A stretch of DNA of 64,000 bases from Vicinamibacterales bacterium (GTDB taxonomy: Bacteria > Acidobacteriota > Vicinamibacteria > Vicinamibacterales > 2-12-FULL-66-21), in the NCBI GenBank assembly GCA_036496585.1, contig DASXLB010000022.1, positions 62,001 to 126,000 of the forward strand. The letters run 5' to 3'. Positions within the stretch are counted from its first letter, which is position 1; the number at the start of each line of letters is the position of its first letter. The notes beneath the pieces were generated by a model. The model searched no databases and had not been told where the DNA came from. It worked only from the letters and a program-made list of their open reading frames with translations. Shown one piece after another: positions 10,326 to 17,022 of the stretch. The translations under genes were made by a program, and so were the position numbers.

Positions 10326-11051
10326 ATGACTGCCACACCGGCGACGCCGATCGGCGATGTCGTCGCCAGCGACTACCAGACGGCGGCGGTGTTCGAACGC
10401 CACGGCCTCGACTTCTGCTGCGGCGGGCGCCGCACCATCGAGCAGGCCTGCCGCGCCGCCGGCGTCGACACTGCCGGCCTGATTCGGGAGATCGATGCCG
10501 TCCTCAACGGGCGGGCCCCCGATGCGCCGTCCTTCGCGTCCTGGAGCGCGCGCCGGCTCGTCGTCTACATCGTCGATCATCACCATGCATTCGTACGCGG
10601 CGCACTGGCGCCGATGCTGCAGTACTCCGGCAGGATCGCCACGGTGCACGGCCAACGCCACCCGGAACTGATCCGGCTGGCGGCGATCGTCGCCCGCGTG
10701 GCCGACGAGATGACGGATCACATGCAGAAAGAGGAGCGGATTCTCTTTCCATTCATCGCCGCGCTCGAGGCCGCCGCCGAGACCGGCGGAGCAGCCGTGG
10801 CTGCGCCGTTCGGCGCCGTTGCCAATCCCATTCACGCGATGGAAGCGGAGCACCAGGTCGTCGGCGACGCGATGGCCGAGATCCGCGAGCTGACAAGTGG
10901 CTACCAGCCGCCCGCCGACGCGTGCACGACCTATCGGGTCGCGTTCTCGGAGCTCGAGGCGTTCGAACGCGATCTGCACGCGCACGTCCACCTGGAGAAC
11001 AACATCCTGTTCCCCAGGGCCATCGCGATGCAGACCGCGGCGCGGGCGTAG
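10326..11051 (+). CDS. ric: RIC iron-sulfur cluster repair di-iron protein (YtfE/ScdA)
   Basis: A 241-residue protein with an N-terminal ScdA_N domain (residues 10-65; HGLDFCCGGRRTIEQAC with the conserved CC pair) followed by a hemerythrin-like domain. Iron ligands are visible in IVDHHHAFV, DHMQKEERILFPF, HAMEAEHQVVGD and HVHLENNILFPRA. The family repairs iron-sulfur clusters damaged by nitric oxide or oxidants, using a non-heme di-iron centre. Start: ATG 10326, four bases after GGAGGTGA. It is the first rightward gene of the nitrate block and separated by about 40 bp from the transporter, so co-transcription is likely. Confidence 0.92.
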   Translation: MTATPATPIGDVVASDYQTAAVFERHGLDFCCGGRRTIEQACRAAGVDTAGLIREIDAVLNGRAPDAPSFASWSARRLVVYIVDHHHAFVRGALAPMLQYSGRIATVHGQRHPELIRLAAIVARVADEMTDHMQKEERILFPFIAALEAAAETGGAAVAAPFGAVANPIHAMEAEHQVVGDAMAEIRELTSGYQPPADACTTYRVAFSELEAFERDLHAHVHLENNILFPRAIAMQTAARA

Positions 11052-11090
11052 GCCCTGCGCCGGTTGCGTGGCCTCCCCCCGAGGGATACA

Positions 11091-16163: not shown

Positions 16164-16744
16164 GCACGTCAGGCGAACCGGTTTCGGAGGAACGGAGCGA
16201 GCGAGCACCGCGAGCGGGCCACGCGAAGGGAGCGGCGGCCGCGAGTGGGCGTGGAGAGGTCTGGAAAGAGGAGTTCTCCGTCGACGCCGCCGAAGACGCC
16301 TACGTGCTCCGGCGGCAGTTCACGAAGTTCCTCGTGCTGACCAGCGCCGGCATGGCGTGCGGCAACGGCTGGATCTGGCTCCGGTCGCTGGCGGCGGCGC
16401 CGGCGGCCGCCTACCCGCGGGCATTGATCGCGAAGGCCGGGGATCTGGAGCCCGGCACCGTCCGCGTGTTCTCGTATCCCAACGACCACGATCCCTGCAT
16501 TTTGATCCGGCGGGCGAACGGCGCGCTGGCGGCCTTCAGCCAGAAGTGCACACACTTGTCCTGCGCGGTGTACTACGCGGCCGAGCAGGATCGCCTGGAG
16601 TGCCCGTGCCATAACGGCGCATTCTCCGCCGAGAGTGGACGCGTGCTGCAGGGGCCGCCGCCGCGGCCGCTGCCGCGCATCCGGATCGAGGAGCGCGATG
16701 GCGACGTCTACGCGCTCGGCGTGGAGGAAGGGGCCGAACCGTGA
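16160..16744 (+). CDS. Membrane-anchored Rieske [2Fe-2S] protein
   Basis: A 194-residue protein: a hydrophilic N-terminus of about 50 residues with an RRQF motif (310-like Tat resemblance) before a hydrophobic segment (about 55-78), then a Rieske fold. Cluster ligands are C130 and H132 (CTHLSC) and C148 and H151 (CPCHNG); C135 and C150 are placed for the disulfide found in the high-potential bc1-type Rieske proteins. RRQFTKFLVLTSAG resembles a Tat-type anchor, which would put the cluster in the periplasm. Finding it in a cytoplasmic molybdoenzyme operon is unusual. ATGA overlap with the upstream gene and GTGA overlap with the next. Confidence 0.92.
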   Translation: MSTSGEPVSEERSERAPRAGHAKGAAAASGRGEVWKEEFSVDAAEDAYVLRRQFTKFLVLTSAGMACGNGWIWLRSLAAAPAAAYPRALIAKAGDLEPGTVRVFSYPNDHDPCILIRRANGALAAFSQKCTHLSCAVYYAAEQDRLECPCHNGAFSAESGRVLQGPPPRPLPRIRIEERDGDVYALGVEEGAEP

Positions 16745-17022
16745 ATCCGCTCGAGCGCCGCCGCCGCCGCGCCGCCATCGACGCGGCGATGGCCTGCGTG
16801 ATCGTGCTGCTGGTCGTCCAGATGTGGCTGTTGACGGCGACACTGGAGTCGTTTCTCGCGGGCCACCGCAGTGTCGCGGCGGCCGCGTTCGCCGTCTCGT
16901 TGTGCCTGTTCCTGCTCTGCGGCGGGCTGTATCGGCTGGTGGTCCGGCTTGATCGCAGCGGCATGCCGGCAGAGCCGGCGGCGACTGGCGCGGGCCCGTG
17001 GCGCATGGGGGAGCGTCTCTGA
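16741..17022 (+). CDS. Small two-TM protein of the nitrate operon (DUF6755-like)
   Basis: A 93-residue protein with a basic N-terminus (LERRRRRAAID), two hydrophobic helices (about 14-36 and 45-66) and a short polar tail. It looks like members of the DUF6755 group, which I recall next to Rieske proteins, though I cannot confirm the number. The GTG start overlaps the Rieske stop (GTGA), so it is a coupled last gene of the operon and probably a structural or anchoring subunit of the same membrane complex. Confidence 0.65.
   Translation: MNPLERRRRRAAIDAAMACVIVLLVVQMWLLTATLESFLAGHRSVAAAAFAVSLCLFLLCGGLYRLVVRLDRSGMPAEPAATGAGPWRMGERL

Follow-up and report, generated by a model that had tools for sequence, protein, structure and literature searches.

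The described systems closest to the one reported here differ in how electrons reach their molybdenum (Mo) site. Nas enzymes (NasC, NasA and NarB) are supplied by an NADH flavoprotein or a soluble ferredoxin, and NarGHI uses the cytochrome b NarI and a four-cluster beta subunit to feed a cytoplasmic Mo site. A survey of the Mo superfamily places NasC and NasA in one assimilatory family (PMC10100899), and in Paracoccus the Rieske-type NirD (NasG) is said to bring electrons to NasC (PMC3475470). Nitrate reductase loci with a Rieske protein are also known already. The haloarchaeal pNar locus (NarG, NarH, NarC, NarB, Orf7) includes the Rieske protein NarB, lost on enrichment, and the di-haem NarC in the account of PMC7754194, and a Rieske/cytochrome b pair is encoded at the Caldithrix Nap locus, as outlined in PMC5317091. 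Here we analyze a window of 64,000 nucleotides (GenBank contig DASXLB010000022.1, positions 62,001 to 126,000), part of contig C22 of a 5.33 Mb draft genome from the Vicinamibacterales (Acidobacteriota). It carries a run of five overlapping genes for a NarK~cytochrome b fusion, a Mo catalytic subunit, a four-cluster ferredoxin, a Rieske protein and a DUF6755 protein. We conclude from their sequences that the run probably encodes a quinol:nitrate oxidoreductase bound to the membrane, whose NarI-like cytochrome b would pass electrons through the ferredoxin to a cytoplasmic Nas-type Mo enzyme that would reduce nitrate to nitrite.

An earlier note on this DNA had proposed that the genes encode a membrane-linked nitrate reductase unlike NarGHI, NapAB or the Nas enzymes that depend on NADH or ferredoxin, and our sequence comparisons support that proposal. 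All the parts it named are present, and the fusion is real, being one uninterrupted open reading frame (ORF). It was wrong in stating that no known nitrate reductase includes a Rieske subunit, given the pNar and Caldithrix loci. In our literature search we recognised no description of a system that joins a Nas-type subunit to a NarI-like cytochrome, a four-cluster partner and a Rieske protein anchored through the twin-arginine translocation (Tat) pathway; nor was a NarK~NarI-like fusion found described.

Distribution of the module

DUF6755 was taken as the tag for finding module loci. At E <= 0.001 it was matched in 40 of 298 Acidobacteriota genomes (29 of them over the Pfam cut-off) and in none of 14 control genomes. 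Among 30 short DUF6755 loci (window included), the Rieske gene adjoins in all 30 and the ferredoxin gene in 29, the sole locus without it (L012) ending at the contig end. Wider stretches were taken for 20 of the 40 genomes, picked for family spread, and all 20 keep the order cytochrome, Mo subunit, ferredoxin, Rieske. A tblastn search of plasmids showed that four from Deinococcus carry this operon too, together with adjoining NarK-type genes. The records of these plasmids (L059-L062) name the stand-alone cytochrome b gene an MFS transporter, a name perhaps carried over from NarK fusions.

A ferredoxin-alignment scan of named genomes supplied the best 80 of 501 relatives. By record title these are 19 Verrucomicrobia, three Bacteriovoracaceae, three Myxococcota or Deltaproteobacteria, two Obscuribacterales, one Planctomycetota, one Anaerolineae, one titled only Bacterium and the remainder Acidobacteriota; most are metagenome bins, and single phylum labels may be wrong. 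Together the three sources give 104 loci (20 + 4 + 80), in which features were counted where enough flank was present; because 80 loci were chosen by ferredoxin similarity, the counts describe near relatives. Beside the ferredoxin gene we found the Mo gene in 98 of 100 loci, the cytochrome gene in 84 of 87 and the Rieske gene in 101 of 101. The misses are L094 and L132 for both the Mo and cytochrome genes, which lie farther upstream there, and L095, which has no cytochrome gene at the locus. By BLAST, which is a weak test here, DUF6755 was detected at 66 of 99 loci. The NarK~cytochrome fusion occurs at 42 of 81 loci and at none of the 19 from Verrucomicrobia; with an independent cytochrome b gene at roughly half of the loci, the fusion does not define the module. 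The named entries near the top of 120 listed Mo-subunit relatives are Vicinamibacterales or Acidobacteria. The earlier note had proposed searching for the five-gene order across genomes; that order recurs in other phyla, far beyond chance, and its core is a real, widespread module.

Catalytic subunit and redox partners

In our reference groups, the residue following the Mo-ligand cysteine separates formate dehydrogenases, with C(A/S)R(L/V)CH, from Nas (Cys-Met or Cys-Thr) and Nap (Cys-Met). The motif NGRLCMVSA is found in 94 of 94 module Mo subunits. The window's protein shares with Nas enzymes the Cys ligand followed by Met, the four cysteines of the FS0 motif and the absence of an export signal. 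None of 93 Mo subunits has a hydrophobic N-terminal stretch, and the 11 that hold an upstream arginine pair lack such a stretch behind it. The highest-scoring NCBIfam model is NasC (NF047855; 761 bits, cut-off 1100); the NasC beside nirB in genome G117 also falls under this curated cut-off, at 802 bits. The narG model gives 45.7 bits against a cut-off of 1084, and the subunit is thus not of the NarG type.

In a tree of 44 rows, built from one search with few references, long branches and Firmicute NasC left out, 26 module sequences form one group (100/97). Its sister is the G117 NasC beside nirB (100/100), and formate dehydrogenases (100/99) and Nap (100/100) both stand apart. The earlier note had named a fall into a formate dehydrogenase clade as the outcome that would count against it; the module sequences instead form a clade of their own. 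The tree is unrooted, and a supported branch (100/99) puts the module with formate dehydrogenases on one side and the other Nas with Nap on the other. The tree alone therefore leaves the module outside the other Nas enzymes, and the nitrate reading is carried by motif and context. NapAB was rejected on the separate clade and the missing hydrophobic N-termini. AioAB/Idr was likewise rejected, as the AioB Rieske model reaches 50.4 bits (cut-off 95.65) and the amino-acid Mo ligand Cys is conserved in the module.

Some genomes hold more than one relative of the catalytic subunit. G117 carries the module operon as well as its NasC-nirB pair, and Chthoniobacter flavus has two copies of the catalytic clade (L122, near nirB, and L164). 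Longer Nas-like proteins of 997 and 1097 amino acids occur in L160 (strain KBS 96) and L163 (Chthoniobacter), with the Mo part starting after about 300 to 400 residues.

The cytochrome half of the fusion gives a model similar to NarI and EtfD and a profile match to E. coli NarI, so that the locus, like NarGHI, has a NarI-like cytochrome b subunit. EtfD of Mycobacterium smegmatis has a different catalytic partner and pathway. His 116, 245 and 263 are present in 87 of 87 sequences. A further histidine appears to have moved between helices, as His174 accompanies Tyr or Phe238 in 73 alignment rows and Asn174 accompanies His238 in 12 rows from Verrucomicrobia. The protein ends in a CxxC...CxxC domain that is cytoplasmic by charge. 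All 16 cluster cysteines of the ferredoxin are invariant over 16 sequences, and hhalign matches it to E. coli NarH at 97% over 85 columns. None of 96 ferredoxins has a hydrophobic N-terminus; here too, 11 hold an upstream arginine pair with no hydrophobic stretch behind.

The Rieske protein retains the RR pair in 102 of 103 rows and both C-x-H-L-x-C and C-P-C-H-x-G in all 102 readable rows. Its predicted topology places the N-terminal tail in the cytoplasm and the cluster domain in the periplasm, in line with the periplasm-facing Rieske of the earlier note. The label bc1-type given there needs correction, since among solved structures AioB and the Rieske proteins of Thermus and b6f come closest, ahead of bc1 proper. 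A conserved G and F occupy the positions of Ser and Tyr in bc1 Rieske proteins, from which a lower redox potential is predicted. The stretch ahead of RR is conserved (W34 in 96%, F38 in 88%). A plain signal seldom shows this, and the stretch would suit a tail that docks on the cytoplasmic subunits. In the window's copy the hydrophobic stretch behind RR is weak, with no segment at the scan threshold; weak stretches are common in Tat signals.

Taken part by part, the module resembles NarGHI in the plan of its electron path. In contrast to NarGHI, however, its Mo subunit is of the Nas type, its beta subunit is short (DmsB size), its cytochrome, at some loci fused to NarK, has the CxxC domain and one extra predicted transmembrane (TM) helix, and Rieske and DUF6755 proteins are added. 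It differs from Nas enzymes in its partners and its separate clade, and no flavoprotein subunit appears among the Pfam and NCBIfam matches in the window's conserved core. AioAB likewise pairs an AioB-type Rieske with an enzyme carrying Mo-bis(molybdopterin guanine dinucleotide) (Mo-bisMGD) but, to our knowledge, has no cytochrome b and no separate ferredoxin subunit. AioA, moreover, is periplasmic and lacks an amino-acid Mo ligand according to the survey's entry (PMC10100899). Lastly, the pNar locus also encodes a Rieske protein and a di-haem cytochrome b with a nitrate reductase (PMC7754194), whereas its NarGH lies outside the membrane, its Mo subunit is NarG-type and its NarC, described as bc1-like in PMC8301774, has nine TM helices.

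Electron path, nitrite fate and alternatives

In the proposed mechanism, electrons from (mena)quinol would enter at the NarI-like cytochrome b, fused in the window to the NarK-family transporter. Two haems would carry them across the membrane, with H116 and H263 on the cytoplasmic side; on the periplasmic side, H245 and H174 (H238 in Verrucomicrobia) would together bind the second haem, or a histidine there would belong to the quinol site. The four-cluster ferredoxin would hand the electrons to the predicted cytoplasmic Mo site, with nitrate as the presumed substrate. This path agrees with the route from quinol through haem and iron-sulfur clusters that the earlier note had drawn. The NarK-type protein is likely a nitrate/nitrite carrier and, fused or neighbouring, would bring nitrate in and let nitrite out. 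The Tat-anchored Rieske, beside the periplasmic haem, would likely take an electron from the quinol site or trade electrons with a periplasmic carrier. A bolder version seems improbable to us: a Nar/bc1 hybrid in which Rieske and cytochrome would divide the electrons of a common quinol site, and in which the NarK fusion would tie the uptake of nitrate and the release of nitrite to electron entry at a single place in the membrane. This would be a third nitrate reductase architecture.

The genomic context suggests different sinks for nitrite in different lineages: NirB or a NirA-family enzyme in Verrucomicrobia, and periplasmic NrfA in many Acidobacteriota. Of the 19 Verrucomicrobia loci, seven have a full-length NirB relative nearby and 14 a NirA-family relative (three cut short), with either in 15; of the remaining four, three extend 334 to 1,712 bases past the ferredoxin gene and one extends 2,517. 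The module of Pelagicoccus mobilis is directly followed by NirB and NirD, with NirA upstream, all over model cut-offs. A CysJ-type flavoprotein gene is near 13 of the 15, so that the NirA-family gene may serve sulfite instead of nitrite, and NirB is the firmer sign. At L118, L129 and L132 the NirA-family gene stands beside the CysJ-type gene, near the nitrate reductase. Neither NirA nor NirB was matched at 1e-20 in the 85 other loci, L053 giving one partial 29% match at 1e-15, and NirB is over cut-off in 4 of 298 Acidobacteriota genomes. NrfA was found in 26 of 40 DUF6755 Acidobacteriota genomes vs 51 of 258 others (Fisher p 1.8e-8, which ignores kinship). Outside genus g51 the count is 12 of 24, and NrfA lies right beside the cytochrome gene once (L044). 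In the window's genome, NrfA, NirB, NarG and NirK all lack a match over cut-off, and there is one NirA/sulfite-reductase-like ORF. The core thus likely has an assimilatory role in one lineage; in others its role is probably in dissimilation or redox balance.

It is possible, yet on balance unlikely, that the module is assimilatory everywhere, as a Nas enzyme fed by the quinol pool in place of NADH or ferredoxin and with no respiratory role. The NirB and NirA-family genes near Verrucomicrobia loci, the sister NasC adjoining nirB and the assimilatory names that JGI gives to many Mo-subunit relatives favor this idea. Against it stand the unmatched NirA and NirB at the other loci, the rarity of NirB in the phylum, the enrichment of NrfA, the presence of RIC, an iron-sulfur repair protein, at 20 of 104 loci, the separate NasC-nirB pair in G117, and the CysJ-type genes near most of the Verrucomicrobia NirA-family genes, which may therefore serve sulfite. 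We also doubt strongly that the donor is a periplasmic cytochrome c or cupredoxin, in place of quinol, with the Rieske as the entry point to the transmembrane haems and nitrate. The retention of the Tat-anchored Rieske at every locus with enough flank and its likeness to AioB, a Rieske partner of a Mo enzyme, fit such a route; however, we noticed no gene for a cytochrome c within the conserved core, and NarI-type cytochromes oxidise quinol in NarGHI.

A periplasmic reductase, its folded Mo and ferredoxin subunits carried out by the twin-arginine signal of the Rieske, is very unlikely. AioA reaches the periplasm by such a passenger route, the Rieske has an RR motif with an anchor, and neither the Mo subunit nor the ferredoxin has a hydrophobic N-terminus, as would be expected of passengers. 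Nevertheless, NarK is fused or adjacent in many loci and is needed only if the site is cytoplasmic, NirB, a cytoplasmic enzyme, lies beside Verrucomicrobia copies, and the C-terminal domain of the cytochrome is cytoplasmic by charge. We regard formate or another oxyanion as a substrate as most improbable of all. Fdh-alpha is the second-best NCBIfam model of the Mo subunit (570 bits), and its closest solved structures are formate dehydrogenases; formate dehydrogenase was rejected because the motif is Cys-Met rather than Cys/Sec-His and the formate dehydrogenase clade lies apart. The NarK fusion and the nitrite reductase neighbours also argue for nitrate. The quinol:nitrate oxidoreductase therefore remains our preferred reading.

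Gene layout, neighbours and biological meaning

Features of the module and its flank in the window
Feature	Position	Strand	Evidence
Crp/Fnr-family regulator	9579..10277	-	divergent; PF00027 and PF13545; NCBIfam FixK/Fnr models below cut-off
RIC / ScdA-YtfE type di-iron protein (FeS repair, nitric oxide stress)	10326..11051	+	TIGR03652 229.1 bits (cut-off 204.7); PF01814 and PF04405
NarK-family MFS~NarI-like cytochrome b fusion	11091..13346	+	uninterrupted ORF; TIGR00886 220 bits, under cut-off 311.7
Mo-bisMGD catalytic subunit, Nas-type	13321..15591	+	FS0 cysteines; Cys ligand in NGRLCMVSA; signal peptide absent
Four-[4Fe-4S] ferredoxin subunit, DmsB/FdnH/NarH type	15588..16163	+	PF13247; 16 cluster Cys
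Rieske [2Fe-2S] protein with RR-x-F-x-K anchor	16160..16744	+	PF00355
DUF6755 protein, two TM helices	16741..17022	+	PF20540 55.9 bits (cut-off 27); two hydrophobic segments

The five-gene run spans 11091-17022. The earlier note had opened it at 10326, which is the start of RIC. The fusion ORF itself opens at TTG 11064, and the sequence points to GTG 11091, behind GAGGG, as the most likely start; the NarK-type half reaches to about 12278 and the cytochrome b half covers about 12279-13346. The fusion and Mo genes overlap by 26 bases and the next three junctions are 4-base stop/start overlaps, an unbroken chain that suggests translational coupling. RIC does adjoin the run in the window, but only some loci (20 of 104) have it there, so that nitric oxide handling is a frequent neighbour of the module and not part of its core. 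On reading its sequence, the Crp/Fnr regulator shows no N-terminal Fnr-type cysteine cluster.

Other genes were noted around the operon. A ferritin-like protein (PF00210) is encoded at 9054-9545, beside the regulator and RIC. Downstream, ORFs at 17994-20888 read, by sequence alone, as CcmE and a CcmF with a C-terminal CcmH-like part, and a Maf gene (PF02545) lies between the operon and these cytochrome c maturation genes. Elsewhere, G000 has two formate dehydrogenase-like genes with an in-frame TGA (C4:102941-105913 and C1:39397-42343), likely selenocysteine enzymes.

Acidobacteriota and Verrucomicrobiota are abundant in soil, where nitrate-reducing capacity is commonly inferred from NarG and NapA markers. 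Because database names read as an assimilatory enzyme and a transporter, the role of the module in nitrogen cycling has probably been overlooked. If our reading is true, the module would be a widespread nitrate reductase that NarG and NapA markers pass over. According to PMC5900883, strain KBS 96 converts about 3% of nitrate to nitrite and has nasA genes but no dissimilatory nitrate reductase (Nar or Nap). It carries the module (L090) plus a second Nas-like gene elsewhere in its genome, which makes a link between the module and its nitrate reduction suggestive only. The module could nonetheless help explain isolates, such as KBS 96, that are reported to reduce nitrate without Nar or Nap, and it illustrates a possible way of connecting a Nas-type Mo subunit to the membrane.
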